A DNA stretch of 64,000 bases from an uncultured Prevotellaceae bacterium. Lineage in GTDB: Bacteria; Bacteroidota; Bacteroidia; Bacteroidales; Bacteroidaceae. The stretch is taken from contig CACXPX010000002.1 in assembly GCA_902769705.1 (NCBI GenBank), positions 1 to 64,000 on the forward strand, written 5' to 3'. Of this stretch, positions 9,788-57,041 are shown one piece after another. The notes beneath the pieces are model-generated. The model saw only the letters and a program-made list of their open reading frames with translations, was not told where the DNA came from and ran no database searches. Every line of letters begins with the position of its first letter. Position 1 is the first letter of the stretch. The translations under genes were made by a program, and so were the position numbers.

Positions 9788-9935
9788 GTCACTTGTGGCT
9801 TCTGAGGTTGTCATTTGTGGCTTTTGAGGTTGTCATTTGTGGCCTTTGAGCCGCTCATTTGCCACAAGTGAGAGGCTCAAAGCATAGCTCTGACAACCCT
9901 AAAGCATAGCTTTCACAAGTCGAAACGATGTAAAG
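9788..9935 (+). repeat. array A: six palindromic modules at 22-bp period plus anchor
   Basis: Modules start at 9788, 9810, 9832, 9854, 9876 and 9898, exactly 22 bp apart. Each is about 19 nt plus a 3-nt spacer. Examples are GTCATTTGTGGCTTTTGAG, CTCATTTGCCACAAGTGAG (a clear palindrome) and CTCAAAGCATAGCTCTGAC. At 9920 the register continues into TCGAAACGATGTAAAG, the anchor shared with the arrays at 17.8, 37.7 and 49.4 kb. The anchor faces folP. The 320 bases between the array and the folP promoter (9936-10256) hold no gene or clear feature. Confidence 0.85.
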
Positions 9936-10256
9936 AAAACGGAAAGGCTACGGGTAGGCGACGGAACGTCGGGAATGGTCTTTGATAATCAACGACTTCC
10001 GGAAATGCTCATTTTTCGCACAAATGCCCGCAAAAGATTATTTTTTTCAACCGATGGCCTTCTCGTGAGGGTGAAATTAAGAATAATATTTACAATTTAG
10101 CCTTTTCTTATCATTTATGTTTTCGGGAGCACGAAGATTGAATCTAACCTTTTTTATCCCACGACAGAATCAGCATTTTCCCCAGCCAATATATATTATA
10201 ATGTGGAAAAGCTTCCTTTTTTCGCCGCTTTACTTGCAAAAAAACGGAAATGGCGG

Positions 10257-10286
10257 TTGTTGTTTGCGTTTTATTTGTTATTTTTG
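10257..10286 (+). promoter_or_regulatory. promoter of folP, implying a near-leaderless mRNA
   Basis: TTG (10257-10259) is followed after 19 nt by TATTTTTG (10279-10286). The box ends 7 nt before the folP ATG, so transcription should begin at or within a few bases of the start codon. Confidence 0.6.
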
Positions 10287-10293
10287 CAAACGT

Positions 10294-11169
10294 ATGACAA
10301 AACCTTTATCCTACACCATCAATGTGCGTGGCAGATTGCTCGACTTGTCGAAGCCAAAAGTCATGGGAATCCTGAATGCTACGCCCGATTCGTTTTATGC
10401 GGGCAGTCGTCTGCAGACAGAGCGCGAAATAGCCGAACGGGCTGTGCAGATAATGGCTGAAGGTGGTGACATTATCGATGTGGGAGCATTTTCCACGAGG
10501 CCTAACGCAACATTTGTGACCGAAGATGAAGAGCTGAGCCGGCTTCAGGAAGCATTGCACATAGTTCGTAAGGAGTTTCCCGAGGCCGTAGTCAGCGTTG
10601 ACACTTTCCGCCCTCGAGTGGCTCGTTGGTGTGTAGAAGAAGGACTTGCCGACATCGTGAACGATGTGAGCGAGGGAACTGGCGAGATGTCCGTTCAAGG
10701 CTTGAAGGATGAAGGAAAGAAAGTTGGAACCGACTCTATGTTTGCTACTGTCGCCCGTTTGGGTGTTCCATATATCCTGATGTCGGTACAACCCACGGTG
10801 AGGGATATGCTCATGCATTGGTCTGCTGACATTCGACAATTGCGGGCGCTGGGAGCGAAAGACATCATTCTCGACCCAGGTTTCGGCTTTGGAAAGACGT
10901 TGGAGCAGAACTACCAAATCATGAATGAACTGGAAAAACTCCGAGTGATGGACCTTCCTTTGTTGGTGGGCGTTTCGCGTAAGAGTATGATATACAAGCT
11001 GTTAGACGGCACTCCACAAACGGCATTAACCGGAACTGTTGCGCTCAACACCATTTCCCTTTTGAAGGGAGCGTCGATATTGCGCGTCCACGATGTGCGC
11101 GAAGCCGTCGAAACCGTCCGCATCGTGGAGCAGTTGTCAGTTTCTGAGCCTATGGTGGGGGAAGAATAA
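10294..11169 (+). CDS. folP: dihydropteroate synthase
   Basis: FolP joins para-aminobenzoate to the pterin pyrophosphate in folate synthesis and is the sulfonamide target. Family motifs run in order: VMGILNATPDSFYAG, IIDVGAFSTRPNA, VSVDTFRP, NDVSEG, DPGFGFGKT and VGVSRKSMIY. The start at 10294 gives 291 residues, a normal length. The frame is open about 180 nt further upstream, but that part is Phe/Leu-rich, lies across the promoter and has no DHPS similarity. A slightly extended loop (GEMSVQGLKDEGKKVGTDSM) follows NDVSEG. The gene is followed after 52 nt by cdaA, probably in one operon. Confidence 0.94.
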   Translation: MTKPLSYTINVRGRLLDLSKPKVMGILNATPDSFYAGSRLQTEREIAERAVQIMAEGGDIIDVGAFSTRPNATFVTEDEELSRLQEALHIVRKEFPEAVVSVDTFRPRVARWCVEEGLADIVNDVSEGTGEMSVQGLKDEGKKVGTDSMFATVARLGVPYILMSVQPTVRDMLMHWSADIRQLRALGAKDIILDPGFGFGKTLEQNYQIMNELEKLRVMDLPLLVGVSRKSMIYKLLDGTPQTALTGTVALNTISLLKGASILRVHDVREAVETVRIVEQLSVSEPMVGEE

Positions 11170-11221
11170 ACAGTTAAGTCAAGTAATAATCCGTAAAAAT
11201 CAATATAAAACCGAAGAAGAC

Positions 11222-11998
11222 ATGCTACCTTTTGATTTCGGAATCAAAGACATCATCGACATTTTTCTGGTCGCATTGATGCTTTATTATATCTATCGCT
11301 TGATGAAAGAGAGCCGTTCGCTCAACGTCTTCATCGGCATCATGGTGTTCGTGCTCCTCTGGCTTTTCGTCAGTCAGGTGCTGGAGATGCGTTTGTTGGG
11401 TTCCATTCTCGACAAGTTGGTCAGCGTAGGTGTCATAGCTCTCATCGTGTTGTTCCAAGAGGAAATCCGGAAGTTCCTCTATACATTAGGCGCCCATCAG
11501 CGATTTAAAGGGCTTACCCGCTTCTTCACCTCGAAGAAAAAGGAAATCAAGGAGGACAAAGAAACCATTATGCCCATCGTGATGGCTTGCATGAGCATGT
11601 CGAAAGGCAAGGTTGGCGCACTGATTGTCATCGAACGAAGTGCTCCACTCGATGACATTATAGAGACCGGCGACCGCATCAATGCCAATATCAACCAACG
11701 ATTGATTGAGAACATTTTCTTCAAGAACTCTCCTTTGCACGACGGAGCTATGATTATTTCAAAGAAACGTATTGCCGCCGCCGGTTGCATACTTCCGGTA
11801 TCGCACAATCTTGACATTCCCAAAGAGTTGGGATTGCGCCATCGTGCTGCCCTGGGAATGTCGCAAGACAGCGATGCTATCTGTGTCATTGTGAGTGAAG
11901 AGACTGGCCGCATATCCGTTGCCATCAAGGGCGAGTTCCGTTTACGTCTGTCGGCTGAGGAACTGGAATCTGTGCTCGCCACAGAGATGTCGGAGTAA
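11222..11998 (+). CDS. cdaA: diadenylate cyclase (c-di-AMP synthase), CdaA type
   Basis: CdaA makes the second messenger cyclic di-AMP from two ATP molecules. The 258-residue protein has three N-terminal membrane helices within about the first 80 residues, and then a DisA_N catalytic domain. Both catalytic signatures are present: the DGA motif (LHDGAMIIS near residue 174) and the RHR motif (GLRHRAALGMS near residue 207). The ATG at 11222 is chosen because the upstream extension overlaps folP in another frame and the membrane helix begins soon after it. In firmicutes c-di-AMP controls potassium and cell-wall homeostasis. Here the partner receptor genes are not in the window. Confidence 0.92.
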   Translation: MLPFDFGIKDIIDIFLVALMLYYIYRLMKESRSLNVFIGIMVFVLLWLFVSQVLEMRLLGSILDKLVSVGVIALIVLFQEEIRKFLYTLGAHQRFKGLTRFFTSKKKEIKEDKETIMPIVMACMSMSKGKVGALIVIERSAPLDDIIETGDRINANINQRLIENIFFKNSPLHDGAMIISKKRIAAAGCILPVSHNLDIPKELGLRHRAALGMSQDSDAICVIVSEETGRISVAIKGEFRLRLSAEELESVLATEMSE

Positions 11999-12123
11999 AA
12001 TATAACATTATTTATCTTTGCGGAAAATGATTTCTCGTGGAAAATGATTAATTTTGCAATCTCAACTTAACAAATCAGAATAGAGCGATAAATAATTACA
12101 AACATTCAAATAAAAAACAAACA

Positions 12124-13131
12124 ATGGATTTATTACAACAGATTGTTGCGCGTGCCAAGTCTAACAAGCAGCGCATCGTGCTTCCCGAAGCAACGGAGGA
12201 GCGCACCCTGACAGCCGCCGACCGTGTAATAGGCGACGATGTTGCCGACATCATCCTGATTGGCAATCCCGATGAAGTTTATGCTTTGGCTGACAAATTG
12301 GGCTTGAAAAACATTCGCAAAGCCACACTCATCGACCCTGAGAACAATCCGAAGAGTGAAGAGTATGCACAGTTGCTGGCCGAGCTTCGCAAGAAGAAGG
12401 GAATGACCATCGAGCAAGCTCGCGAGTTGGTCAAGAATCCTCTCTACTTGGGCTGCATGATTATCAAGACCGAAGGAGCCGACGGACAAATCTCAGGTGC
12501 CCTTTCCACTACTGGCGACACCTTGCGTCCGGCTTTGCAAATCATCAAGTGTGCTCCTGGCATCACATGCGTCAGCGGTGGATTGCTGCTCATCTCGAAG
12601 GAAAAGCAATATGGTGAGAATGGTGTGCTAGTTGTGGGCGACGTGGCTGTCACTCCGATGCCCGATGCCGAACAACTTTCTCAGATTGCTGTTTGCACAG
12701 CTCAGACCGCAAAGAGTGTGGCTGGATTTGCTGAGCCTCGCGTGGCTATGCTGAGTTTCTCCACTAAGGGAAGTGCCAAGCACGAGGTGGTTGACAAGGT
12801 GATTGAGGCTACTCGTTTGGCTAAAGAGAAGGCTCCCGACCTGAAGATTGATGGTGAACTGCAAGCAGATGCTGCTTTGGTTCCGTCTGTAGGTGCCAAG
12901 AAGGCTCCTGGTTGTGAGATTGCCGGTAAGGCCAACGTGCTTGTGTTCCCCAATCTTGAAGTGGGCAACATCGGTTATAAACTGGTGCAACGTCTTGGTG
13001 ATGCCATCGCCATCGGTCCGGTTCTGCAAGGTATCGCCCGTCCCGTGAACGACCTTTCACGCGGTTGCTCCGTTGATGACATCTATTATATGGTGGCCAT
13101 CACAGCTTGCCAGGCTATAGACGCTAAATAG
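12124..13131 (+). CDS. pta: phosphate acetyltransferase
   Basis: Pta converts acetyl-CoA and phosphate to acetyl phosphate, the first step of acetate fermentation. At 335 residues it is the short, single-domain form, without the N-terminal DRTGG/CobB-like domain of the E. coli enzyme. Conserved stretches include RIVLPEATEERTL, SGALSTTGDTLRPALQI and VLVFPNLEVGNIGYKL. A -7 box (TAATTTTG, 12049-12056) and another (TATCTTTG, 12013-12020) precede it. It lies 20 nt before ackA, which completes the pathway. Confidence 0.96.
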   Translation: MDLLQQIVARAKSNKQRIVLPEATEERTLTAADRVIGDDVADIILIGNPDEVYALADKLGLKNIRKATLIDPENNPKSEEYAQLLAELRKKKGMTIEQARELVKNPLYLGCMIIKTEGADGQISGALSTTGDTLRPALQIIKCAPGITCVSGGLLLISKEKQYGENGVLVVGDVAVTPMPDAEQLSQIAVCTAQTAKSVAGFAEPRVAMLSFSTKGSAKHEVVDKVIEATRLAKEKAPDLKIDGELQADAALVPSVGAKKAPGCEIAGKANVLVFPNLEVGNIGYKLVQRLGDAIAIGPVLQGIARPVNDLSRGCSVDDIYYMVAITACQAIDAK

Positions 13132-13151
13132 AAGGAGGAAGGAGAAGGTTT

Positions 13152-14387
13152 ATGAAAATATTAGTTCTGAACTGTGGTAGCAGTTCCATCAAATACAAAC
13201 TTTACAACATGGACGACGAGTCTGTGTTGGCACAGGGAGGTGTGGAGCGCATTGGCCTTGACAACGCCTTCTTGAAACTGGCATTGCCCAACGGCGAGAA
13301 GAAAATCCTGATGCACGACATGCCCGACCACAAAGAGGGTGTGAACTTCGTGTTCCAGACATTGCTTAGCGAAGAATATGGTGCCATCAAGAGCCTCAAT
13401 GAAATCGATGCCGTTGGCCATCGCATCGTGCAAGGTGGTGACCTCTTCGAGAAGAGTTGTCTTGTGAACGAGGGTGTTGAAGCTGGTATTGAGAGCTTGT
13501 GCGACCTTGCACCAGTACACAATGCCGGCCACTTGAAAGGTATTCGTGCGGTAGACCACCTGATGCCCACCGTTCCTCAAGTGACTGTCTTCGACAACGC
13601 TTTCCATTCCACGATGCCCGCTCATGCTTTCCTTTATGCCGTTCCCTACGAGCTTTACGAGAAATATCATGTGCGCCGTTACGGATTCCACGGAACATCT
13701 CACCGCTATGTGTCGCATCGCGTGGCTGAGTTGATGGGCCGCGACATCAAGGATTTGAAAATCATCACCTGCCACATCGGCAATGGTGCTTCGGTTGCAG
13801 CCATCAAGGACGGGAAGGTGATTGACACATCGATGGGTCTTACTCCGTTGGCTGGTGTGATGATGGGTAGCCGTTCTGGCGATATCGATGCAAGTGCTGT
13901 CACCTATATCATGGACAAGCTGCATCTGCAGCCCCAAGAGATGGCCGACTTCCTGAACAAGAAGTCTGGCGTACTTGGTATCACAGGCATCTCGAGCGAC
14001 ATGCGCGACATTGAGGAAGCTGCCAAGAATGGCAACGAGCGCGCTCAGCTGGCTCTGCGTATGTATAACTACCGCATCAAGAAATATATCGGGTCTTATG
14101 CTGCCGCTATGGGTGGTGTAGATGTGATTGTCTGGACTGCTGGAGTGGGAGAGAATCAGATTTCCACACGTCTTGAGTCATGCTCGGGCTTGGAGTTCCT
14201 GGGCGTAAAGATGGACGTGGAGGCCAACAACTGTCGTGGTGAAGAGAAACTGATATCTGCTCCCGACTCGAAGGTGCAGGTATGGGTCGTTCCCACAGAT
14301 GAGGAAATCGTCATCGCTCGCGACACGATGGAAATCGTTCTGAATCAGCAGCCAACAGATGAAGCAGAATCAGATGAACTAGTATGA
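13152..14387 (+). CDS. ackA: acetate kinase
   Basis: AckA transfers phosphate from acetyl phosphate to ADP, yielding ATP and acetate. The N-terminus MKILVLNCGSSSIKYKLY is the first acetate kinase signature, GRDIKDLKIITCHIGNGASV is around the second, and TPLAGVMMGSRSGDID lies in the active site region. The length of 411 residues is slightly longer than usual because of a polar acidic tail (PTDEAESDELV). A GGAGAAGG stretch precedes the ATG. It is co-transcribed with pta and ends at a strong terminator. Confidence 0.96.
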   Translation: MKILVLNCGSSSIKYKLYNMDDESVLAQGGVERIGLDNAFLKLALPNGEKKILMHDMPDHKEGVNFVFQTLLSEEYGAIKSLNEIDAVGHRIVQGGDLFEKSCLVNEGVEAGIESLCDLAPVHNAGHLKGIRAVDHLMPTVPQVTVFDNAFHSTMPAHAFLYAVPYELYEKYHVRRYGFHGTSHRYVSHRVAELMGRDIKDLKIITCHIGNGASVAAIKDGKVIDTSMGLTPLAGVMMGSRSGDIDASAVTYIMDKLHLQPQEMADFLNKKSGVLGITGISSDMRDIEEAAKNGNERAQLALRMYNYRIKKYIGSYAAAMGGVDVIVWTAGVGENQISTRLESCSGLEFLGVKMDVEANNCRGEEKLISAPDSKVQVWVVPTDEEIVIARDTMEIVLNQQPTDEAESDELV

Positions 14388-14397
14388 TAAATCAACG

Positions 14398-14437
14398 AGA
14401 AGGGGAAGGCTTTTAACTGGTCTTCCCCTTCTTTTTT
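14398..14437 (+). terminator. intrinsic terminator of the pta-ackA operon
   Basis: AGAAGGGGAAG (14398-14408) pairs perfectly with CTTCCCCTTCT (14422-14432), followed by T residues. It begins 10 nt after the ackA stop codon. Confidence 0.92.
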
Positions 14438-14466
14438 AATGTATAGGAAGTTTTGTTCCCGAACTT

Positions 14467-14502
14467 AAAAACCTTCTTCGCTATGATGCGAGGAAGGTTT
14501 TT
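14467..14502. terminator. second, bidirectional-looking hairpin terminator
   Basis: A 15-nt stem (14467-14481 with 14488-14502, one non-Watson-Crick position) starts with five A residues and ends with five T residues, so it can work in both directions. The loop is TATGAT. It probably backs up the ackA terminator and insulates the sigma-factor operon. Confidence 0.7.
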
Positions 14503-14524
14503 GCTTATGAAACATTCCAGTTTC

Positions 14525-14555
14525 TTGTAGGAATGTCAACTTTGCAGTATCTTTG
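14525..14555 (+). promoter_or_regulatory. promoter upstream of the ECF sigma operon
   Basis: TTG (14525-14527) and TATCTTTG (14548-14555) are separated by 20 nt, a good housekeeping promoter. The sigma gene starts 150 nt later, so the leader would be long and would contain the small reading frame at 14570. A weaker box, CAACTTTG, is at 14669-14676, nearer the sigma gene. Confidence 0.6.
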
Positions 14556-14569
14556 CAAGCAGAAACGAG

Positions 14570-14635
14570 ATGGAAAAAACTAGGCTTTTTTCAAGGCAAG
14601 AACAGCTGTCTCAGAAACAAAAAACGAAAAAATAA
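14570..14635 (+). CDS. 21-codon upstream reading frame, possible leader peptide
   Basis: An ATG placed 15 nt after a strong -7 box opens a 21-codon frame. It encodes a very basic, glutamine-rich peptide beginning MEKTRLFSRQEQ and ending in a lysine cluster. It stops 73 nt before the ECF sigma factor gene. It could be a translated leader affecting the sigma gene, or chance. There is no similarity I recognise. Confidence 0.25.
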   Translation: MEKTRLFSRQEQLSQKQKTKK

Positions 14636-14708
14636 TGATTTTTTTGCGAAAAACGTGAAAGGAATCTGCAACTTTGGGTACTAACTGTTTGAACTAACTC
14701 CCAAAAAG

Positions 14709-15191
14709 ATGAATGAATTAGAACTTGAATTCACGAAAATGGTCAGAGAGCACCGGAAGACAATCTACACGGTGTGTTATTTCTTCTCAGACAATCCCAC
14801 CTATGTGGACGACCTTTTCCAAGAAGTGTTGGTAAACCTGTGGAAAGGCTTTCCAAAGTTCCGTGGCGAGAGTGAAAGGAAAACGTGGATATGGCGCGTG
14901 GCCTTGAACACTTGCTGTAACATTGAGCGAGGCAAGAAGCGGAGGGTGACGACCGTTCCGCTGCTCATCGACAAGGATGTGATGAGCGAAAAAGACGAAG
15001 TAGGACAGCAAATCAAAATGCTCTACAATCGTATCAACCGCCTTGAACTATTCGATCGTGCTATCATTCTTCTTTGGCTGGAGAGTATGCGGTATGACGA
15101 GATTGCCGCGATAGTGGGCATATCCACTTCGGCAGTCACCAGCCGCCTGTTCCGCATCAAGGAACAACTCAAATCAATGTCAAACAATTAA
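14709..15191 (+). CDS. ECF-type RNA polymerase sigma factor
   Basis: The 160-residue protein has sigma region 2 (about residues 10-75, with DDLFQEVLVNLWKGFPKF and ESERKTWIWRVALN) and region 4 (about 105-155, with LWLESMRYDEIAAIVGIS and the helix SAVTSRLFRIKEQL). It lacks region 3, as ECF sigma factors do. It should direct polymerase to a small regulon, possibly including its own operon. The gene is followed after 12 nt by a multi-pass membrane protein that starts with a soluble helical segment, an arrangement that suggests sigma plus membrane-bound partner. The signal is unknown. Confidence 0.92.
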   Translation: MNELELEFTKMVREHRKTIYTVCYFFSDNPTYVDDLFQEVLVNLWKGFPKFRGESERKTWIWRVALNTCCNIERGKKRRVTTVPLLIDKDVMSEKDEVGQQIKMLYNRINRLELFDRAIILLWLESMRYDEIAAIVGISTSAVTSRLFRIKEQLKSMSNN

Positions 15192-15203
15192 AACCGTAAA
15201 GCT

Positions 15204-16169
15204 ATGTCAGAGAATGTTTTAGAACTCCATGAGTTGGATGAACTGAGAGCCATCTATAACCTGATGGACGAGCGTCTGGACGGTCAGGAGATTGTTTCGG
15301 AGGAGCAACTCCGTGTGGTGATGGGTCGTAGAATGAATTTCATACGAAAGGATGCCAAGCAACTGGTTATTATGATTAATCTAGTGTTGTTGCCGTTGAT
15401 CGCATTTGTAGAATACTACAATGGCAGACTGAACTGGTTGGGTAGCATCGTGCTCGCCGTTGACTGGATTACAACATTGCTGTTCGGACTGTATCTTATG
15501 AGACTGGCACGTACTGATGAGTATTCCACGTCGGATGTGAAAACGCTATGCGAAAAGAATTCTTTGTACCAAAAGTTGACGAAATGGTTCGTTCCGATAA
15601 TTGTACTGTTTATCCCCGTATATTTCGGTTTGAGTTTTGTTGCAGAAGGCCGATGGGGCGTGGGAATCATTTTCTTCTTCTTGTTCACCATTCCTTTGGT
15701 AATAGGTTATTTGGTAGGTACTTTGTACCGACGCAGAATCATCAAGAATGAACATAACGGTATAGATATGGATCCGGAAACTGGTGGCCCTGTCAAAATT
15801 GCAAAAAAGCACAAAGGAATCTTCATCTTGCTGATATGCCTTTTTAGTATTGTTACAATACTTGGCAACATCCCCGTTTTTTTCGGATTTGCTTACATCG
15901 ATAATATGACAGACTTGATGGTCTATCTGTACCATGCCTCAAACGTTGCCATCGGGATTGTCTTAATACTGTCGCTGCTTCATGTGATCAATGCAATTAG
16001 GATTCCCGAAAAACTATTTTATACTCTTCTTGCTATTGTAGTGCTCGTAGCTGTGGCTGTTGTCGTTGTTTCGATGTATTTGAACATTACAGAATCCGGC
16101 AATCCCGACATATTAGTAAAAGTCATTGGTATGGCATTTTTAGCCTATTATTTCTATAAGAATGCTTGA
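15204..16169 (+). CDS. multi-pass membrane protein paired with the ECF sigma factor (possible anti-sigma)
   Basis: I do not recognise a named family. The 321-residue protein has an N-terminal soluble segment of about 55 residues (EHDELRAIYN-like helices with many Leu and Glu). Then come about eight membrane helices in pairs from residue 53 onward. A cytoplasmic or periplasmic loop lies around residues 180-205 (RRRIIKNEHNGIDMDPETGG). Immediate linkage to the sigma gene suggests it holds or senses for that sigma factor; this is inference from position. The next gene, a TlpA-like protein, has its own promoter. Confidence 0.7.
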   Translation: MSENVLELHELDELRAIYNLMDERLDGQEIVSEEQLRVVMGRRMNFIRKDAKQLVIMINLVLLPLIAFVEYYNGRLNWLGSIVLAVDWITTLLFGLYLMRLARTDEYSTSDVKTLCEKNSLYQKLTKWFVPIIVLFIPVYFGLSFVAEGRWGVGIIFFFLFTIPLVIGYLVGTLYRRRIIKNEHNGIDMDPETGGPVKIAKKHKGIFILLICLFSIVTILGNIPVFFGFAYIDNMTDLMVYLYHASNVAIGIVLILSLLHVINAIRIPEKLFYTLLAIVVLVAVAVVVVSMYLNITESGNPDILVKVIGMAFLAYYFYKNA

Positions 16170-16216
16170 GCTGCAAACTATTGCAAACAGGACGCAAACT
16201 ATTGAGAACAAAAAAG

Positions 16217-16248
16217 TTTGGAGGCTTGGGAAGTGAGCCTTAATTTTG
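16217..16248 (+). promoter_or_regulatory. promoter of the TlpA-like gene
   Basis: TTTG (16217-16220), 20 nt, TAATTTTG (16241-16248). Just upstream the 11-nt direct repeat GCAAACTATTG occurs at 16173 and 16194, 21 bp apart, and could be a regulator site. Confidence 0.6.
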
Positions 16249-16276
16249 CAACCAGAAATAATAATTAATCACAAAT

Positions 16277-17362: not shown

Positions 17363-17372
17363 TCAGCAAAAG

Positions 17373-17407
17373 AAAAAGGAAGTAGCAGAAATGCCACTTC
17401 CTTTTTT
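17373..17407 (+). terminator. intrinsic terminator after the TlpA-like gene
   Basis: AAAAAGGAAGT (17373-17383) pairs with ACTTCCTTTTT (17396-17406). The A and T runs on both sides allow termination in both directions, so it would also terminate the minus-strand tRNA locus next to it. Confidence 0.85.
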
Positions 17408-17411
17408 CATG

Positions 17412-17473: not shown

Positions 17474-17488
17474 TTTTGTAAGCGGATG

Positions 17489-17496
17489 CAAAGATA
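17489..17496 (-). promoter_or_regulatory. -7 promoter element upstream of the broken tRNA
   Basis: TATCTTTG on the minus strand lies 16 nt before the surviving tRNA sequence, close to where a complete tRNA would start. Confidence 0.5.
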
Positions 17497-17614: not shown

Positions 17615-17898
17615 CTAGAAAATTGTAAAGATAATTCCGAATTATAGGCTCAAAAAACGTGTTGTTTTCTAAAAGGAGCTAAACTTTGGTACGAAAATGA
17701 CAAAAAATCGGCATTTTTGTAAATGGCTGACAATCAGTGGTTTTCATTTTTTTTACATTTTTTCGACTGGTAAAAACGATGCTTTTGTGCAGCAAAAAGC
17801 CCCTTTTTGATGTACAAGAAGCGGCAAATGAGGCGGTCAAAAGGGGCTTTTAGCACGGTCAAAAGCCACAAATGACAACGTCATTGATGGCTAATGAC
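17615..17898 (-). repeat. array B: six 22-bp modules, anchor and tail; inverted copy of array E
   Basis: On the minus strand modules start at 17898, 17876, 17854, 17832, 17810 and 17788, each 22 bp apart, followed by the anchor TCGAAAAAATGTAAAA from 17766. The six modules match those at 37646-37777 nearly base for base (for example GCTAAAAGCCCCTTTTGAC and TCAAAAAGGGGCTTTTTGC are identical). Similarity continues beyond the anchor: CTGATTGTCA, then an AAAATGCCGATTTTT block, then AATTCGGAAT at offset 123 in both copies. The anchor faces the broken tRNA gene. The remaining bases up to the transporter gene at 18033 hold no gene. Confidence 0.88.
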
Positions 17899-18032
17899 AA
17901 TCCGACAACACAAAAATGAAGGAAAAAGAACGGAGAAATGGTGTATTTTCGCTTTTTCTGTTCTAAAACAAACAGAGATGCCGACAGGAATTTGTCGAAT
18001 TATTTCAGAATTATTTCTTCAAACAAACAGCC

Positions 18033-21269: not shown

Positions 21270-21294
21270 CTTCAGTTGACGCGTTTCCAGAATC

Positions 21295-21401
21295 GTTACC
21301 ACTATGCGGTAACATCATTACCAATATGTGGTAACACCATTACCACTATGCGGTAACGTTATTACCAGTATGCGGTAGACATACTACCACACGGCGGTAA
21401 C
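21295..21401. repeat. array C: five 19-nt palindromes at exact 22-bp period
   Basis: Units start at 21295, 21317, 21339, 21361 and 21383. Unit 1 is GTTACCACTATGCGGTAAC, and the others differ by a few bases (ATTACCAATATGTGGTAAC, ATTACCACTATGCGGTAAC, ATTACCAGTATGCGGTAGA, ACTACCACACGGCGGTAAC). The outer six bases of each arm are the conserved part (GTTACC/GGTAAC) and 3-nt spacers separate the units. No anchor sequence was found here. It lies between the divergent NSS and vanZ-like genes. Confidence 0.9.
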
Positions 21402-21450
21402 AAATATACAAATAGTTGGCAATAATTGTTCTTGCAAGGTGAGTTTTTAT

Positions 21451-29936: not shown

Positions 29937-30027
29937 GAATCCCTTCCAGTCCTCTCAAAAAACTGCTGGAGATTACCCCTTAAGCAACAAAATGAAACGC
30001 TTTTGGGGAAGCAAAGCAAAAGACAGA

Positions 30028-30143
30028 GGGGCTGTGTCAAAATAGTAGTGCATATTTCTGAAAAGTGTACATGCCACATGTACGGACTGTACAAGCTACA
30101 TGTACAGTTCTTATATGCCACATCTGCTATTTGACACAGCCCC
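30028..30143. repeat. array D: three palindromes at 22-bp period inside a 17-bp inverted repeat
   Basis: GGGGCTGTGTCAAAATAG (30028-30045) is inverted as CTATTTGACACAGCCCC (30127-30143). Between them are palindromic units at 30066 (TGTACATGCCACATGTACG), 30088 (TGTACAAGCTACATGTACA) and a decayed one at 30110 (CTTATATGCCACATCTGC), 22 bp apart. The outer inverted repeat with a following CCCCTTTT could also act as a terminator after the GH30 gene. There is no coding sequence and no transposase. Confidence 0.8.
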
Positions 30144-30335
30144 TTTTGTTTCTTTCAAAGCACATAGGTGGGATAATTACCGATTCGTTGCGGCTTTACC
30201 CTCAACCACCTTAGTTGATGAAGAAAAGCCTTTTCATCTTGTCAATCGGACGCTTTTAGACGGACAAACGCCTAAAAAACGTTCGCCATAATCAAATTTC
30301 TTCATTCTTCTTTATTCATTATTCATTTTATTATG

Positions 30336-37469: not shown

Positions 37470-37645
37470 GCAGCAACCTCCCCATCTCAGCCGATTTCAA
37501 CGATTCAGCGAGCCATCATAAAGGATTTATTATTCTGAAATAAACCGACAAAAGCCAATCAGATTCACCATTCGTTCCAGAACGAAAAAAGAGCACAAAA
37601 AGCCATTTCTGTGCAATTGCTCTCCATTTTTCATGCAGCCGCATT

Positions 37646-37925
37646 GTCATTTGCCGCTAATGACGTTGTCATTTGTGGCCTTTGACCGTGCTAAAAGCCC
37701 CTTTTGACCGCCTCATTTGCCGCTTCTTGCACATCAAAAAGGGGCTTTTTGCTGCACGAAAGCATCGTTTTGACCAGTCGAAATAATGTAAAGAATTCGG
37801 AAGTCTCTGATTGTCAAATGTTTACAAAAATGCCGATTTTTAGTCATTTTTGCACCATTATCTTGTCAGATTCAAAAAATCAGCCGTTTTTAGGGGTAAA
37901 AATTCGGAATTTATTTGACAATTCG
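37646..37925 (+). repeat. array E: six 22-bp modules, anchor and tail; inverted copy of array B
   Basis: Modules start at 37646, 37668, 37690, 37712, 37734 and 37756: GTCATTTGCCGCTAATGAC, GTCATTTGTGGCCTTTGAC, GCTAAAAGCCCCTTTTGAC, CTCATTTGCCGCTTCTTGC, TCAAAAAGGGGCTTTTTGC, ACGAAAGCATCGTTTTGAC. A 3-nt spacer separates them. The register runs into the anchor TCGAAATAATGTAAAG at 37778. The tail keeps CTGATTGTCA at 37806, the ATGCCGATTTTT block and AATTCGGAAT at 37901, co-linear with array B. The anchor faces the metallophosphoesterase gene. Bases 37470-37645 hold no gene. Confidence 0.88.
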
Positions 37926-49189: not shown

Positions 49190-49386
49190 ACACATTTTTT
49201 CCGTTTTCATAACATTTCGATTGAAAAATACTCAAAAAGGTGATATTTTTCTTTTTTAAAACTTTGAAAGAATTTTAATCGGGCTCTCAAAAATGCCGTT
49301 GCTGAAACCTTTCCCCACCACAAATGCAAAAAATGCACAAAATAGAAAATTCGTGCAATAACATGATTTTCAACAACTTGTAATTT

Positions 49387-49513
49387 CTTTACATTTTTCG
49401 CAAATTGTCAAAGCTATGTTTTCACCCTCTCAAAGCATAGCTTTAGCAGTTCAAAAGCATGCATATTAGCGCTTAAAAGATGGCATTTAGAAGAGCAAAA
49501 AGGCCGTTTTCAT
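49387..49513 (-). repeat. array F: five modules at 22-23-bp period plus anchor
   Basis: On the minus strand the modules run 49513-49492, 49491-49470, 49469-49448, 49447-49425 (23 nt) and 49424-49403. They end at the anchor TGCGAAAAATGTAAAG (49402-49387). The core of several modules is AAAGCATAGCTTT or its variants (49425-49447 carries CTCAAAGCATAGCTTTAG on the plus strand), the same core as in array A and at the start of array G. The anchor faces the glsA promoter. From 49514 to the mraZ promoter (about 220 nt) the sequence is AT-rich with no gene. Confidence 0.75.
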
Positions 49514-49738
49514 CGAAAATTTCCTATTTTTTGCTACAAAAAAGAGGGACTTGAGATACATTAAAGTCAAAAAACGATGAAAATTGAAAATATTAGCTAA
49601 TTTAATTTTTACGAAATTTTATTACAAAACACGGTATTCAAACAGCATTTCAATCCCATAGAAAAAGTAGAAAAATTAATATGCTTAAAGAGTTAAAAAT
49701 CAAGAAAATCACTTTTTTTGAAAAAAAAATCAAAAAAG

Positions 49739-49771
49739 GTGGGGAAAAGTGGGGGGAAATTATTACCTTTG
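49739..49771 (+). promoter_or_regulatory. mraZ promoter with two MraZ-type GTGGGG boxes
   Basis: GTGGGG occurs at 49739-49744 and 49749-49754, exactly 10 bp apart. The -7 box TACCTTTG follows at 49764-49771. MraZ in other bacteria binds direct repeats of a TGGG/GTGG core about 10 bp apart in its own promoter. Here the boxes occupy the -33 region, so binding should block polymerase and repress the dcw cluster. Confidence 0.65.
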
Positions 49772-49802
49772 CGAACGGATTCGTTTTTAACATAATGTAC
49801 AC

Positions 49803-50282
49803 ATGCGATTTTTAGGTAATATAGAAGCTAAAACCGACGTTAAAGGCAGAGCATTTCTGCCAGTCGTCTTCCGCAAGGTGCTCCAGGCATCTGGCGAAGA
49901 ATCGCTTGTGTTGCGCAAGGATGTCTTCCAACCCTGTTTGGTGCTCTACCCCCAATCGGTGTGGAACGAGCAAATGGACACCTTGCGGCGGCGGCTCAAT
50001 CGCTGGAGTGCTCACCAGCAGCTCATCTTCCGCCAATTTGTGGCAGATGTAGAGACCTTGACACTCGATGGAAACGGCAGATTCCTCATTCCGAAACGCT
50101 ATTTGAAGATGGCCAACATCGAGCAGAGCATCAAATTCATAGGCATGGGCGACACCATTGAGATATGGAGCAGCAACGTTGCAAGTCAACCCTTCATGGA
50201 GCCCGACGAATTCAGCCGCGCATTGGAAGCTATCATGACAACACCCGAGACCCCATACACAGCCGAACAAACAACCGACTGA
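49803..50282 (+). CDS. mraZ: transcriptional regulator MraZ
   Basis: MraZ is a double AbrB-like protein that binds the promoter of the division and cell-wall (dcw) cluster. The 159-residue protein has both copies of the D-x3-R core: TDVKGRAFLP (first half) and LDGNGRFLIP (second half). It is the first gene of the cluster and lies just downstream of the GTGGGG boxes. There is an in-frame start at 49803 only; the nearby ATG at 49796 is out of frame. In E. coli MraZ represses its own operon and activity is antagonised by MraW (RsmH) levels. Confidence 0.94.
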   Translation: MRFLGNIEAKTDVKGRAFLPVVFRKVLQASGEESLVLRKDVFQPCLVLYPQSVWNEQMDTLRRRLNRWSAHQQLIFRQFVADVETLTLDGNGRFLIPKRYLKMANIEQSIKFIGMGDTIEIWSSNVASQPFMEPDEFSRALEAIMTTPETPYTAEQTTD

Positions 50283-50315
50283 CACCGCTAACTCAGCATC
50301 TTCCGAAACGATTAT

Positions 50316-51230
50316 ATGGCGATGACCGCAGAATCATATCACGTACCTGTCCTGCTAAAGGAGAGTGTCGACGGACTTAGTATTAAGCCCGATGGCATCT
50401 ACGTGGATGTGACCTACGGAGGAGGAGGCCACTCGAAGGAGATTCTGACGAGACTGGGGCTGAAAGGACGACTTTTCAGTTTTGACCAAGATGCTGACGC
50501 CGAGCAGAATATCGTAGACGATGAACGGCTGACCTTTGTGAGGAGCAACTTCAGATATCTTGTCAACTGGATGCGCTACTATGGTGTGGAGCAAATAGAC
50601 GGCCTGCTGGGCGACTTAGGTGTGTCGAGCCACCATTTCGACGATGCTGAACGAGGATTCTCCTTTCGCTTCGAGGCACCGCTCGACATGCGGATGAACA
50701 AAAGGGCGACGATTACGGCTGCCGATATCGTGAACAAAGCCGACGAAAAACAATTGGCCGACATCTTCTACCTCTACGGCGAACTGAAATCAGCAAGGCG
50801 GATAGCGGCGGCCATCGTGAAAGAACGGACTCAGAAACCCATATTGACCACGAAGGACTTCATCGATGCGGTGGAACCCTTCTTCAAACGGGAAAGCGAG
50901 AAGAAAGATATGGCCCGACTGTTTCAAGCGCTACGCATAGAGGTGAACCACGAGATGGACGCTCTTAGGCAAATGCTCAACGGAGCCACTCAAATCATCA
51001 AACCTGGTGGAAGGCTCGTCATCATCACCTACCACTCGCTCGAAGACCGAATTGTCAAGAATGTGATGAAGGCTGGGAATCCGGAAGGGACTGTCAACCA
51101 AGACTTCTTCGGACGCATTGAAGCCCCTTTCACCCCACTCAGCAACAAGGTGATTACACCCACCCCTGACGAGCAAATGCGAAACCCGAGAAGCAGAAGT
51201 GCAAAACTAAGAATTGCGACAAGAAAATGA
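50316..51230 (+). CDS. rsmH: 16S rRNA (cytosine-1402-N4) methyltransferase
   Basis: RsmH (MraW) methylates the N4 position of C1402 in 16S rRNA at the decoding centre. The 304-residue protein has the start YHVPVLLKESVDGL, the SAM-binding motif VDVTYGGGGHSKEIL and the specific region LDMRMNKRATITAADIVN. The C-terminus GRLVIITYHSLEDRIVKN is conserved. An ATG six bases downstream is an alternative start. Its stop overlaps the FtsL-like gene start by 4 nt. Confidence 0.97.
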   Translation: MAMTAESYHVPVLLKESVDGLSIKPDGIYVDVTYGGGGHSKEILTRLGLKGRLFSFDQDADAEQNIVDDERLTFVRSNFRYLVNWMRYYGVEQIDGLLGDLGVSSHHFDDAERGFSFRFEAPLDMRMNKRATITAADIVNKADEKQLADIFYLYGELKSARRIAAAIVKERTQKPILTTKDFIDAVEPFFKRESEKKDMARLFQALRIEVNHEMDALRQMLNGATQIIKPGGRLVIITYHSLEDRIVKNVMKAGNPEGTVNQDFFGRIEAPFTPLSNKVITPTPDEQMRNPRSRSAKLRIATRK

Positions 51231-51811
51231 AGACGGAAGAAGACAACAACAAGATAAAAGGTCCACAACTGACCATCGAGACGGCTCCCGAACCCGAGAG
51301 TGCATCTTCTGCTGAGCCTCAAAAGACCGACGAAGATACGCCTGACAAAGCCAAAGAGCAGATAAAAGGCAATTCGAAGCCCAAGAAGAAAGAAGAGGCA
51401 ACGGCACCAGCTGAAGAAATTGTGGAAGAGCCCTCATCGCTGAGGGAAGCCATCAAGGAAACGGCTACCGAAGACGAGGCTCCGCAATCGAAGAACTTCA
51501 CGCTCCGCAAAATATTGGGTGGTGACATCCTCTCCACGCAAACCATCAGGAGCCAGATATGGGTCATACTGCTCATCACGGCATTCCTCATCATCTACAT
51601 CTCGAACCGTTACAGCTGCCAGCAAGACCTCATACAAATCGACAAACTCCAAAAAGAACTGCAAGACGCGAAATACAAAGCACTGGCCAGCAGCAGCCAA
51701 CTGACAGAGAAATGCCGCGAAAGCCACGTGCTCGACATGTTGAAAGCTAACAACGACAGCCTGCTGAAAATAGCCAATCAACCACCTTATATAATAAAGG
51801 TGCCAGAATAA
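51227..51811 (+). CDS. ftsL: FtsL-like cell division protein
   Basis: The position between rsmH and ftsI, the single membrane helix (about residues 106-124, IWVILLITAFLIIYISN) and the short periplasmic coiled coil after it (LIQIDKLQKELQDAKYKALASSSQL) all match FtsL. This protein joins FtsQ and FtsB to activate FtsWI. The N-terminal cytoplasmic part is unusually long, about 100 residues, low in complexity and rich in Glu, Lys, Pro and Ala. Sequence of FtsL is poorly conserved, so the name rests on gene order and topology. Confidence 0.78.
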   Translation: MKTEEDNNKIKGPQLTIETAPEPESASSAEPQKTDEDTPDKAKEQIKGNSKPKKKEEATAPAEEIVEEPSSLREAIKETATEDEAPQSKNFTLRKILGGDILSTQTIRSQIWVILLITAFLIIYISNRYSCQQDLIQIDKLQKELQDAKYKALASSSQLTEKCRESHVLDMLKANNDSLLKIANQPPYIIKVPE

Positions 51812-51860
51812 GGCAGCCAAAGTACCACCAAATGTCAACCGTTAAATGTGAATTGAACAA

Positions 51861-54074
51861 ATGAGCAAATTCGACTATAAGAAAATCATGCCGCGCTACA
51901 GTGCCATCGCTATCGTGATGACATTGGTGGCCGTTGCTGTGGTGGGAAAGACGATGTACATCATGACCGCCAAGCGAGACTATTGGATGAAAGTGGCTGC
52001 TAAAGTGAAGAAAGACAGCGTCAGCGTGAAGCCTTCACGTGGAAACATTCTTTCATGCGATGGACAGTTGATGGCCTCGTCATTGCCCGAATTCAAGCTT
52101 TTCATGGACTTCGACGCCCTTCATAATGCCAACAACGACTCGCTCTGGGATTGCAAACTCGATAGCATCTGCATGGGATTGCACAACATCTTCCCAGAAA
52201 TGTCAGCTGAAGCTTTCCGCAAGCATCTGGATGAAGGACGCGCCAAGGTGAACAAAGATGGAAGCGTGGGCTCGCGCCACTGGCCTATTTGGAAAAAGCG
52301 TGTGGACTTCAACACTCTCCTCGAAGTGAAGGAACTGCCTGTATTCAATATGCCGTTGACTTATGAGAAAGTGGTTGACGAGTACGTCATAAAAGCATCG
52401 TTCAAGAGCGGATTCAACATCGAGGAATACAACTCACGCCAACGTCCGTTCGGTTCGGCAGCCCGCCGAACTATCGGCGACCTTTTCGGAAGTAAGGACT
52501 CAGCCCGCTACGGACTTGAACTGTCCTACGACTCTGTGTTGCGCGGCACCAACGGCATCATTCACCGCCGCAAAGTGCTCAACAAGTTCCTTGACATCAT
52601 GGACACTCCGCCCATCGATGGCGCAGATATCATCACCACTATCGACGTCGAGATGCAAGACTTGGCTGAGCGTGCAGTCATCGATGAACTGAAACTCATT
52701 AACGGAAACGTGGGTGTGGCCATCGTGATGGAAGTGCAGACAGGCGACATCAAAGCCATTGTGAACATGGAGAAATGCAGCGATGGTGAATACCGCGAAC
52801 TGAAAAACCACGCCGTGAGCGACCTTCTGGAACCGGGTTCTGTCTTCAAGACTGCCTCTATCTTGGTTTGCCTTGACGACGGAAAATGCGATACTACCAA
52901 ACGCGTGGAGACAGGTGGAGGCGTATGGCCTATGTACAAACGGCAGATGAAAGACCACAACTGGCGTAGGGGAGGCTATGGAATGCTGACTTTGCCACAA
53001 ACTTTGCATGTGAGTTCGAACATCGGTGTGAGCCGCATTGTCGATGAATATTATCACAGCCATCCAGAAAAGTTCGTGGAGGGACTCTGGCGCACAGGAC
53101 TTGCCGATGATTTGCACATTCCACTCGTAGGTTCAACACCAGCCAAAATACGTATGCCTCAAAAAGACAAGACTGGAAAATACTGGCTCAACTGGAGCGA
53201 TACCGCCCTACCCTGGATGTCTATCGGCTATGAGACTCAGGTGCCACCCATCTCCACGCTCACCTTCTACAACGCCATAGCCAACGATGGGCGCATGATG
53301 CAGCCACGCTTCGTGAAACAAATCGTAAAAGACGGAGAGGTGTTGATGGAATTTGAGCCCGTAGTGTTGCGTGAGCATATCGCCAAACCCACAACCATCA
53401 AGACGATGCAAACCATTTTGGAACAAGTGGTTAGCCAAGGACTTGGAAAGAAGGCTGGCTCGCCATCGTTCAAAGTTGCTGGAAAAACAGGAACCGCACA
53501 GATATGGACAGCGAGCGGTAAAACCGCTAATTATCTGTTATCGTTTGCTGGGTTCTTCCCCGCCGACGCACCACGCTATAGTTGCATCGTCTGCATTCAG
53601 AAGTCGGGATTGCCCGCATCCGGTGGCGGCATGAGTGGTGTGGTTTTCCACAACATCTCGGAAGGAATTATGGCGCAAGCGTTGAAACTCGATGTGAAAG
53701 ACGCCCGCGACTCCAGTACGATAACTATCCCCGATGTTAAAGACGGAAACATCCTAGCTGCTGACTACGTGTTACAACACTTGGGCGTGAAGTCAGACAT
53801 TGATTGGGGCGCCACCACTCCAAACAACAACACGACCATATGGGGGCGTGCTGAAAAAAATGCTAATAAAGGTGTTGCATTACGCCACGAGAAGTTGTCT
53901 GCTGACAGCGCAATGCCTAACGTTCACGGAATGGGTGCACGCGATGCTGTCTATCAGATTGAGAAGCGCGGAGTGAAAGTGGTACTGAAAGGACGGGGAA
54001 AAGTCACCAAGCAAAGCCTCTCGCCTGGTCAAGCCATCAAGAAAGGCGACATCTGCATGCTGACACTTGAATAA
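51861..54074 (+). CDS. ftsI: division-specific peptidoglycan transpeptidase (penicillin-binding protein 3) with C-terminal PASTA domains
   Basis: FtsI cross-links septal peptidoglycan. The 737-residue protein has an N-terminal membrane helix (about 14-33), a PBP dimerisation/pedestal region and a transpeptidase domain. Active-site motifs are SVFK (Ser327, Lys330), SSN (385-387) and KTG (542-544). Two PASTA domains follow at about 615-737 ([21 protein letters not shown] and [19 protein letters not shown]). C-terminal PASTA repeats on FtsI-type PBPs occur in Bacteroidetes and Gram-positives but not in E. coli. Positioned between ftsL and murE. Confidence 0.95.
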
Positions 54075-54100
54075 TAAAGCAAAAAGAAAACGACAGATAT

Positions 54101-55564
54101 ATGAAACTAAGCGAATTGCTCAAAAACATCAAGCCGACTGTCATCATCGGCGATACCGACATCGACATCACAGGCGTGAACATCGACTCACGACGTATTG
54201 CCGACGGTCATCTCTTCGTGGCTATGAAGGGTACACAGGTCGACGGACATAAGTTCATTGCCAAAGCTATCGAGCAGGGAGCCAAGGCCATTTTGTGTGA
54301 AGATTTGCCCGAAGACGCCAACAACCAACAAACATCAAACATCACCTACATACAAGTGCCATCTACTGAAGACGCTGTAGGCCGTGTGGCTACGCTCTTC
54401 TATGGCGACCCGTCAAAGAGACTAAAACTTGTGGGAGTCACCGGTACTAACGGTAAGACGACCATTGCCACGTTACTCTATAATATGTTCCGTAAGATGG
54501 GGCATCGTTGTGGTCTGCTCTCAACAGTCTGCAACTATGTTGAAGGCGAAGCCATCCCGGCCAGCCACACAACTCCCGACCCCATCGAGCTGAACGCCCT
54601 ACTTGCTAAAATGGTGGACGCAGGCTGCGAGTACGCCTTCATGGAGTGCTCCAGCCACGCCATCGCTCAGAAACGCATAGGCGGTCTGAACTTCACTGGC
54701 GGCTTGTTCACCAATCTCACTCGCGACCATTTGGACTATCATAAAACCTTCGAGAACTATCGCAACGCCAAGAAAGCGTTCTTCGATGCACTTCCGAAAG
54801 GCGCTTTCGCCATTACCAACGCCGACGATAAGAACGGCATGTTTATGGTTCAGAACACACGGGCTACAGTGAAGACTTACTCTACCCGTTCGATGGCCGA
54901 CTTCAAGGCACATATTCTGGAATGCCATTTCGAAGGCATGTATCTCGAAGTCGATGGACGTGAGGTGGGTGTGCAATTCATTGGCAAATTCAATGTGTCG
55001 AACCTGTTGGCTGTCTATGGTGCAGCCATCATGCTGGGCAAGAAACCCGAAGACGTGCTTCTCGTGATGAGCACGCTGAAAAGTGTCAACGGAAGGCTCG
55101 ACCCCGTTCGTTCACCCGAAGGATTCACCGCCATCGTTGACTATGCTCACACACCTGATGCTTTGGAGAATGTGCTCAACGCCATTCACGAAGTACTCAA
55201 CGGCAAAGGCCAGGTTATTACCGTTTGCGGAGCTGGTGGTAATCGCGATAAGGGAAAACGACCTCTCATGGCGCAAGAGGCTGTGCGTCAGAGCGACCGA
55301 GTCATCATCACAAGCGATAACCCACGATTCGAAGAGCCACAAGACATCATCAATGACATGCTTGCCGGCCTCAACGCCCAACAGATGAAAAAGGTGGTGA
55401 GCATTGTTGACCGCCGCGAAGCCATCCGTACGGCCTGCATGATGGCACAGAAAGGCGACGTGATACTCGTTGCTGGAAAGGGCCATGAGAATTATCAAGA
55501 AATCAAAGGTGTCAAGCACCACTTTGACGACAAGGAAGTGCTGAACGAAATATTCGCCCAATAA
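54101..55564 (+). CDS. murE: UDP-N-acetylmuramoyl-dipeptide ligase (adds meso-DAP or another diamino acid)
   Basis: MurE adds the third residue of the peptide stem. The 487-residue protein has the N-terminal [24 protein letters not shown], the ATPase P-loop [16 protein letters not shown] near residue 115, [20 protein letters not shown] and C-terminal [19 protein letters not shown]. The DNPR motif marks MurE enzymes that use meso-diaminopimelate. This is the usual choice in Bacteroidales. The upstream gap to ftsI is 26 nt. Confidence 0.96.
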
Positions 55565-55592
55565 TTGAAAACAAAAAAAGACAAAGATATTT

Positions 55593-56897
55593 ATGCTTTA
55601 CTATCTTTTCCGCTTTCTCGAGCAATATCAAATACCCGGCTCCCACATGTGGCAATACATCTCGTTCCGGTCGTTGCTCACACTCATTCTATCGCTACTC
55701 ATCTCTGCGTGGTTCGGCGAAAGATTCATCAAATACATGAAGCGCCACAACTTCAAAGAAGCGGCGCGCGATGAAATCATCGACCCGTTCGGCGAAAAGA
55801 AGAAGAACGTCCCCTCCATGGGTGGCATCATCATCATCGTCAGCATCCTGGTACCCGTCTTGCTGCTGGGCCGTATGCGCAACATTTATCTGCTGCTCAT
55901 GATCGTCACCACCATGTGGTTGGGATTCCTGGGATTCCTCGACGACTACAAGAAGCGCAAGAACAAAGAAGGACTGAAGGGCAAATACAAGATCGTGGGA
56001 CAAGTGAGCATCGGACTCATCGTGGGACTCGTCTTATGGGCAAGCCCCGACGCAAAAATCAACGAGAACATATCGACCGAGCGCCAAGGAATAGAGACCG
56101 TTGTGACGCATAAGTCAGAGTCAGTGAAATCGTTGAAAACCACCATCCCATTCGTGAAGAACCATAATCTCGACTACTCCAACATCATGGGGTTCTGCGG
56201 AAAATACAAGAACGCTGCAGGATGGGTGTTGTTCGTGTTATTGACCATCTTCATTGTGACAGCCGTCTCCAATGGCGCCAACCTCAACGACGGCATGGAC
56301 GGCATGTGTGCCGGCAACGCGGCCATCATAGGCGTCGCCCTGGGCATATTGGCCTATGTGTCAAGCCATATTGAATACGCTTCCTACTTGAACATCATGT
56401 ATATTCCTGGCTCGCAGGAACTTGTGGTATTCCTCTGTGCCTTCATTGGAGCCATGATTGGTTTCCTTTGGTATAATGCTTACCCCGCGCAAGTGTTCAT
56501 GGGCGACACCGGCTCGCTGACGATTGGCGGCATCATCGGCGTTTGCGCCGTCATCATCCACAAAGAACTGATGCTCCCCATTCTGTGCGGAATCTTCTTT
56601 GTGGAAAGCGTGAGTGTCATCATGCAAGCCTACGTTCCACGTATGTACAAGTCATACTGCAAGTTGCGCCACAAACCAGTGAGAACGGTAAGGCCGTTCC
56701 GTGCCACCCCGCTGCACGACACATTCCGCAAGACAAACATGCAAGTGCTCAGGACAATGGCCAGATATAAAGTGGATGGCATCTGGCTCTATAATTGGCC
56801 ACAACGCCTGTTCCACGAATCGAAAATCACCGTACGCTTCTGGATTACCACCATCATCTTGGCTGCTTTGGCCATCATCACTCTGAAAATAAGATAG
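55593..56897 (+). CDS. mraY: phospho-N-acetylmuramoyl-pentapeptide transferase
   Basis: MraY moves phospho-MurNAc-pentapeptide onto undecaprenyl phosphate, forming lipid I. The 434-residue protein has about ten membrane helices. Visible motifs are PSMGG near residue 72 and FLDDYKK near 115, then VTAVSNGANLNDGMDG with the metal-binding Asp region and FMGDTGSLTIGG. Compared with the roughly 360-residue E. coli protein there is an extra extramembrane segment of about 50-60 residues near positions 150-205 (DAKINENISTERQGIETV...). A longer loop here is common in Bacteroidetes MraY. The gene is followed by array G before murD. Confidence 0.95.
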   Translation: MLYYLFRFLEQYQIPGSHMWQYISFRSLLTLILSLLISAWFGERFIKYMKRHNFKEAARDEIIDPFGEKKKNVPSMGGIIIIVSILVPVLLLGRMRNIYLLLMIVTTMWLGFLGFLDDYKKRKNKEGLKGKYKIVGQVSIGLIVGLVLWASPDAKINENISTERQGIETVVTHKSESVKSLKTTIPFVKNHNLDYSNIMGFCGKYKNAAGWVLFVLLTIFIVTAVSNGANLNDGMDGMCAGNAAIIGVALGILAYVSSHIEYASYLNIMYIPGSQELVVFLCAFIGAMIGFLWYNAYPAQVFMGDTGSLTIGGIIGVCAVIIHKELMLPILCGIFFVESVSVIMQAYVPRMYKSYCKLRHKPVRTVRPFRATPLHDTFRKTNMQVLRTMARYKVDGIWLYNWPQRLFHESKITVRFWITTIILAALAIITLKIR

Positions 56898-56934
56898 TTA
56901 CAATATAAAACAACAACAAACGGCAAATAAAGAA

Positions 56935-57041
56935 TGCAAAGCTATGCTCTAGTGCAGTAAAATAATTTATTTTATCGAGTAAAATAATTTATTTTGGTGA
57001 GTAAATTAATTTATTTTACAATGGAAAATAATTTATTTTAC
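56935..57041. repeat. array G: five palindromes at exact 22-bp period, inside the dcw cluster
   Basis: Units start at 56935, 56957, 56979, 57001 and 57023. The last four are AT-only-cored palindromes near GTAAAATAATTTATTTTAT; unit 3 is GTAAATTAATTTATTTTAC, and its mirror arms of nine bases flank one central base. The first unit carries AAAGCTATGCT, the core shared with arrays A and F. Spacers are 3 nt. The array fills most of the 178-nt gap between mraY and murD, where other dcw gaps are mostly below 100 nt, and would be transcribed if the cluster is one operon. Confidence 0.9.

Follow-up and report, generated by a model that had tools for sequence, protein, structure and literature searches.

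The 64,000-nucleotide window analysed here (positions 1 to 64,000 of contig CACXPX010000002.1, assembly GCA_902769705.1, from an uncultured Prevotellaceae bacterium) carries, at seven intergenic loci designated A to G, arrays of dyad-symmetric modules that repeat every 22 bp. The dyads are about 17 bp long. Their degenerate modules keep a few invariant positions, their half-sites vary without coupling, their module numbers recur, and the palindrome sequence changes between species. The explanation we favour, with roughly even confidence, is that the arrays are cooperative docking strips, in which the dyads serve as sites for dimers of a putative sequence-specific DNA-binding protein.

The lattice was measured in 450 kb of the same genome, made up of the window, the remainder of contig C2, contig C1 and 40 kb of contig C3, and divided into 44.8 kb of intergenic and 406 kb of coding DNA. 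A palindrome centre was defined, independently of sequence, as a position with at least seven of eight complementary arm pairs at offsets 2–9. The intergenic DNA yielded 21 pairs of centres at a lag of 22 bp, whereas 20 dinucleotide shuffles of the same DNA averaged 0.15; the coding DNA yielded 2. A preliminary description of this DNA had named a shuffled-sequence control beforehand as the refuting test; its claim of in-register palindromes survives, as does that of their intergenic location. Further pairs at lags of 33, 44, 55 and 66 bp (17, 11, 9 and 6, respectively) are what a 22-bp period that is itself palindromic would be expected to give. When arrays were counted as runs of three or four modules at periods 17–30, the 450 kb held nine at period 22 and none at each of the 13 other periods.

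Within the window, the loosest palindrome scan returned seven rows at period 22 (A, the tail hairpin of A, B, C, D, E and G) and between zero and two at the other periods of the range 17–30; locus F was missed by this sequence-independent scan even at the loosest cut. Tandem Repeats Finder (TRF) reported period 22 at loci A, C and G. A lattice scan with the motif of the T1 repeat, described below, recovered A, B, E and F at 22 bp and nothing at any other period from 17 to 30; in the home genome it gave 33 hits at 22 bp and none at 18–21 or 23–27. Each of the seven loci first proposed was detected by at least one of these scans. The 23-bp step once placed in array F is not needed, a plain 22-bp lattice fitting that array.

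The seven loci had been presented as a single family, a view that did not hold: A, B, E and F form one family, and G and D are two more. Loci A, B, E and F, earlier assigned to separate palindrome types, are copies of an interspersed repeat of about 390 bp, T1, which runs from a left end through a constant stretch and six 22-bp modules into a tail of about 135 bp. All four were matched by an nhmmer profile built from 31 copies, none of them from the window, for which the best match in a reversed-sequence control had an E-value of 0.29. Locus A occupies 9667–10095 on the forward strand with six modules at 9786–9917 (nhmmer 9746–10095, E = 2.8e-72; lattice scan; left end placed by eye), and locus B occupies 17622–18018 on the reverse strand with modules at 17768–17899 (nhmmer 17937–17623, E = 2.3e-56; outer ends by eye), matching locus E at 87%. 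Locus E lies at 37530–37921 on the forward strand with six modules at 37644–37775 (nhmmer 37607–37921, E = 1.9e-63). Locus F, at 49325–49492 on the reverse strand, is a degenerate copy with four recognisable modules at 49405–49492 (lattice scan); its nhmmer match (49471–49325, E = 2.9e-8) covers only profile positions 108–252.

A search with locus E gave at least 44 matches in its own genome, itself counted (40 of 136 candidates scored). The 450 kb contained 15 approximately full-length T1 hits, of which 10 had served in the profile; by extrapolation, a genome would hold roughly 120 copies. For alignment, 32 of 37 pattern hits were retained (three had false second anchors and two an incomplete or shifted array) and trimmed to 320 nt at a constant offset from the tail. 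These segments align in 322 columns with a mean column identity of 78%, and the distance from the inner TCTAGA landmark (variants included) to the tail anchor is 212 bases in 25 of the 32, 211 in four and 201 in one, the landmark not being found in two. The ends read GACAAA..TTGTC and AATTCnGAATT..GACAAA, with the short inverted motif TTTGTCAA close to both. An invariant A and an invariant T recur at columns 47+22k and 59+22k, and the pair at offset 6 is Watson–Crick in 192/192 modules. Pairing falls to 137/192 at offset 7 and 159/192 at offset 8, and many T1 modules are symmetric only in part. The earlier view that most modules are good palindromes is not supported.

Locus G (56933–57064, no strand assigned; TRF and own-genome matches) contains four AT modules of the TAAAATAATTTATTTTA type at 56955–57042, together with one recognisable flanking module per side; the flanking T1-type modules correct the first description. 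The corresponding family has at least 62 matches at no fewer than 40 places in the genome (40 of 55 candidates scored). The set studied comprised 28 elements: eight lie in the 450 kb, and 20 were hand-picked among the 40 places. AT modules number four in 24 elements, five in two and three in two; L290 and L078 score three by the strict AT pattern, and in both the next module is altered or shortened. The exact sequence AAAATAAWTTATTTT is present in 104 of 112 AT modules. In a typical element the AT core is continued in both directions, without change of register, by about three degenerate T1-type modules per flank. A(-6) together with T(+6) at a step of 22 was found in 55/56, 55/56 and 45/56 cases for flank modules 1, 2 and 3, and in at most 10/56 at steps of 18–21 and 23–26; the mark is weaker at module 4 (0.61 and 0.59) and faint beyond. 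Different palindromes therefore share one lattice. The 7-nt spacers between AT modules (for example in L272–L291) come largely from a small set, many of them occurring in both orientations, and for this reason recombination or inversion between AT modules probably occurs.

Locus C (21292–21402, no strand assigned) comprises about five modules of the GTTACC..GGTAAC type, reported by TRF as five copies of period 22 and also found in the palindrome scans. Locus D (30024–30145, forward strand), read directly, has two full GTACATGCCACATGTAC-type modules within a long but imperfect stem that leads into a T run, a terminator-like arrangement by eye; the earlier statement of three or more modules at every locus thus fails here. 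The D family has 25 matches at 15 places in the genome, and when a strict pattern is applied, four modules are scored at 7 of 13 loci and one, two, three or five at the others.

To assess other genomes, we used a sample unselected for arrays, in which a metabolic gene served to pick the loci (the best 80 of 598). It comprised 56 Prevotella-like loci (1.0 Mb), some titled just Bacteroidaceae or Bacteroidales, and 24 Bacteroides-like loci, of which 23 are titled Bacteroides and one Mediterranea. The Prevotella-like loci contained 12 and 11 arrays at period 22 under two cuts, and zero or one at other periods; under a looser cut 13 loci held 15 arrays, two of them orthologous. Their palindromes are diverse and include TTGCACACTTTGTGCAA, TCTCACGTGTGAGA, AAGTACACGTACTT, GTACATGGCCGATGTAC, TTCCAGTTCAACTGGAA and AAAACGCACTGCGTTT. 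Four modules were present in 9 of 17 unselected arrays, and over 54 arrays of all kinds the commonest numbers were four (19 arrays), five (14) and six (9). The proposal that spacing and symmetry are kept while sequence changes is thereby supported in unselected Prevotella-like loci with many palindromes, and is qualified by a minority of arrays at 21 bp.

The Bacteroides-like loci showed no excess at period 22 (none or one array) and two arrays at period 21; two possible 22-bp palindrome arrays were seen among them, at L189:3771-3837 and L227:3908-3985. No excess was found in 20 genomes from other genera of the same order (400 kb), with one period-22 triplet and none at other periods under the same cut, and 150 kb of E. 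coli had zero period-22 triplets. A second unselected sample of the genus (270 kb) lacked the lag-22 palindrome peak yet gave seven T1-motif lattice hits at 22 bp and three at 21, from which we conclude that species differ in their arrays. Queried with a full T1 copy, 14 of 149 other genomes of the genus gave matches, in pieces of at most 93 nt. Marker-gene protein identity is at most 94% among the matches listed for 398 genomes of the genus. A three-module array, TTGCANNTACATGTANNTGCAA, is conserved at L168:8847-8912, L169:8701-8766 and L164:5956-6021 with substitutions only and unchanged spacing; its neighbours are a lipoamide-dehydrogenase-like gene and, on the other side, a convergent gene.

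As to genomic setting in the window, locus G is flanked by MraY-like and MurD-like genes (Pfam) inside the cell-wall gene cluster, and the degenerate T1 copy F sits directly upstream of the mraZ/mraW-like start of that cluster (49325–49803). A weak additional 22-bp tandem repeat of the CATATTTT type (2.3 copies, 9393–9442) lies between a Mur-ligase gene and locus A. Among 14 own arrays, five lie between divergent, four between codirectional and five between convergent genes (background 32, 53 and 23 of 108), with no clear orientation rule. T1 neighbours, placed for 18 of 32 loci, were codirectional in 12 cases, divergent in three and convergent in three.

In the docking-strip model, one dimer would bind per dyad, with contacts at A(-6) and T(+6). 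The next dyad, 22 bp or about two helical turns on, would place successive dimers on nearly one face of the DNA with a slow twist. Adjoining dimers would then touch, and the DNA would be stiffened, coated or wrapped over about 90–220 bp. Binding to G-family elements may nucleate at the near-invariant AT core and extend over the degenerate flanks, and different array types may answer to different or diverging proteins. Protein binding, the dimeric state, DNA wrapping and a role in regulation, insulation or chromosome organisation are inferred from these patterns. An Lrp/AsnC-type protein is a candidate binder, albeit an unlikely one; the genome encodes three PF01037 (Lrp/AsnC) proteins.

Several observations weigh against the docking-strip model. 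Palindrome arrays with a 21-bp step occur at L187:1588 and L227:12549 (Bacteroides-like) and at L186:3632 (Prevotella-like), and T1-like arrays of genome G127 (L036, L049 and L060) also step by 21, not 22, those of G120 stepping by 22; this minority is compatible with docking strips because 21 bp also fits two-turn phasing. Module number is variable outside T1 and G. The AT modules lack the G/C found at offset 2 of T1 modules, which makes a single protein for both doubtful. The three Lrp/AsnC loci, of about 3.2 kb each, all lack a period-22 array, which 29 of 140 such tiles in the sample contain. The remaining contrary points concern RNA. In T1 modules 4–6, offsets 3–5 are paired in 173/288 cells, which hairpins would also explain, and module 6 pairs at offsets 4 and 5 in 31/32 and 29/32 copies. 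Arrays between codirectional genes show 38 G.T and 26 A.C mismatches, a weakly RNA-like bias that counts at least one near-duplicate pair; in arrays between convergent genes, where strand is arbitrary, the numbers are 12 and 27, and the wobble comparison as a whole is ambiguous. Unselected arrays between divergent genes number 0 of the 11 placed (of 15), against a background of 66/269. Finally, some D arrays may act as RNA, since they sit in terminator-like stems: a T-run long stem encloses the array, clearly by eye, in 4 of 13 loci (L252, L254, L257 and L268), and some D arrays are probably transcribed.

All of these RNA points would suit arrays of transcribed tandem stem-loops at mRNA ends, acting in termination or stability in the manner of REP/BIME elements, an explanation that we nevertheless consider improbable. 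T1 modules 1–3 have mismatched inner positions, being paired at offsets 3–5 in only 69/288 cells, and module 6 pairs at offsets 7 and 8 in only 7/32 and 12/32 copies. The half-sites of the G flanks are uncoupled, their inner triplets matching palindromically in 11/168 modules with 12.0 expected under independence. RNAalifold gave the 32 T1 copies a weak consensus fold (-10.8 kcal/mol, covariation term -0.65), with double changes in 6/22 pairs. Divergent-gene gaps hold 5/14 of the own arrays. A simple terminator scan, limited to loops of 3–8 and hence blind to long ones, found nothing at locus D or L254. Rfam gave no match at gathering score in the window and four matches, all below gathering score, at five element loci; a tRNA scan at one conserved array found none. 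A long-hairpin model, suggested by array halves that look complementary, was tried and rejected: left outer modules of G-family elements are no more complementary to their own mirror partners than to the corresponding modules of other elements (0.554 vs 0.569, 0.508 vs 0.539 and 0.464 vs 0.479). On balance, this evidence, together with the A/T pair kept at offset 6 in every T1 module, favours array modules being read as double-stranded DNA rather than as RNA hairpins. Of the three explanations first suggested, a protein array is the best supported, and cruciforms and RNA hairpins are disfavoured because base-pair coupling is lacking, with the proviso that D may be transcribed.

An unlikely alternative to docking strips is that these are non-autonomous mobile elements, similar to miniature inverted-repeat transposable elements (MITEs), with the arrays acting as multiple binding sites for a transposase or integrase. 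T1 is dispersed through its genome in both orientations and has conserved ends, so it was or is copied. Moreover, T1-like ends (GACAAA..TTGTC on the left, AATTCnGAAT..GACAA on the right) enclose arrays of other palindromes in G127 and, in less complete form, in G120. Against mobility, no target-site duplication was found: in 29 copies (three of the 32, lacking the inner anchor, were omitted) end repeats matched equally within and between copies (0.5047 vs 0.5045, permutation p ~0.5), and the best excess of short flanking repeats was equalled in 6/60 permutations, although old duplications could have decayed. The RAYT-type transposase domain Y1_Tnp (PF01797) is absent from the genome by a profile that detects it in 5 of 14 control genomes. 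A single T1 copy had zero matches in phage and plasmid collections, and no T1 ends could be made out beside the G and D elements inspected.

A functionless mutational by-product, in which slippage and hairpin template switching generate palindromic tandem repeats, appears quite improbable. The near-identity of AT modules and the recurrent, often inverted spacers would suit it, but it does not predict a single dominant period across unrelated sequences, the near-absence of indels in T1, the recurring module numbers, the invariant positions in degenerate modules or the uncoupled half-sites. The hairpin copying process put forward in the preliminary description is likewise disfavoured, because half-sites are uncoupled and T1 is nearly free of indels. 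Plasmid iterons are tandem direct repeats at one origin, about two turns apart and bound by a single protein. If the arrays were relics of such an iteron system, or of a partition system, of plasmid or phage type that had since spread over the chromosome, the regular two-turn spacing of their sites would be accounted for; our arrays, however, are dyads at many chromosomal places, T1 has no match in the phage and plasmid collections, and three exact AT modules had zero matches in viral contigs, making this origin very improbable.

A match to an already described repeat family had also been named beforehand as refuting, and comparison with known systems found none; no paper listed by a literature search aimed at such arrays, partial in coverage, describes them in its title or the opening of its abstract. 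The nearest described element in the order, from the available part of its report, is the BrickBuilt MITE of Porphyromonas gingivalis (PMC4596501), with 23-nt repeats in 1 to 22.8 copies, IS5-like terminal repeats GAGACCTTTGCA and a long stem-loop. BrickBuilt and T1 are both interspersed and intergenic, with short tandem repeats between a leader and a tail. T1 differs in its ends, neither of which is GAGACCTTTGCA, and in its period, with 33 lattice hits at 22 bp and 0 at 23; BrickBuilt copy number is variable, and the available part of that report mentions dyad symmetry just in passing and describes no module lattice of changing sequence.

Archaeal Lrp proteins, as far as the accessible text of a review goes (PMC2995911), bind as dimers to imperfect palindromes of 13–17 bp in clusters of degenerate sites whose centres lie two or three helical turns apart, with DNA wrapping. 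These clusters resemble the 22-bp arrays in having imperfect palindromic sites at two-turn spacing; they differ in that the accessible text places them in control regions of target genes and describes no dispersed element of constant length. We treat this resemblance as a working likeness, not as membership. REP/BIME elements with a RAYT transposase (PMC3733652, in the part available) are likewise small intergenic palindromes, sometimes grouped, but are tagged and 20–40 bp long; the RAYT-type Y1 transposase is not in our genome, and our arrays instead form a 22-bp lattice of changing sequence.

The conservation of spacing across a large genus in which the sequence changes suggests that common machinery reads the geometry together with an evolving motif. 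More tentatively, the arrays could represent an element class conserved in geometry, a two-turn dyad lattice of recurring lengths at some 100 or more places per genome (extrapolated), whose palindrome changes between species and within arrays; such a class might amount to a bacterial positioning code for a wrapping, nucleosome-like assembly with fast-evolving DNA specificity, a possibility that we regard as somewhat doubtful. Were the arrays a mobile family instead, their length constraint would be unusual. If a protein does dock on them, Prevotella-like bacteria would possess a DNA-organising or regulatory system that is abundant yet uncharacterised, and the arrays themselves could serve as bait for isolating it.

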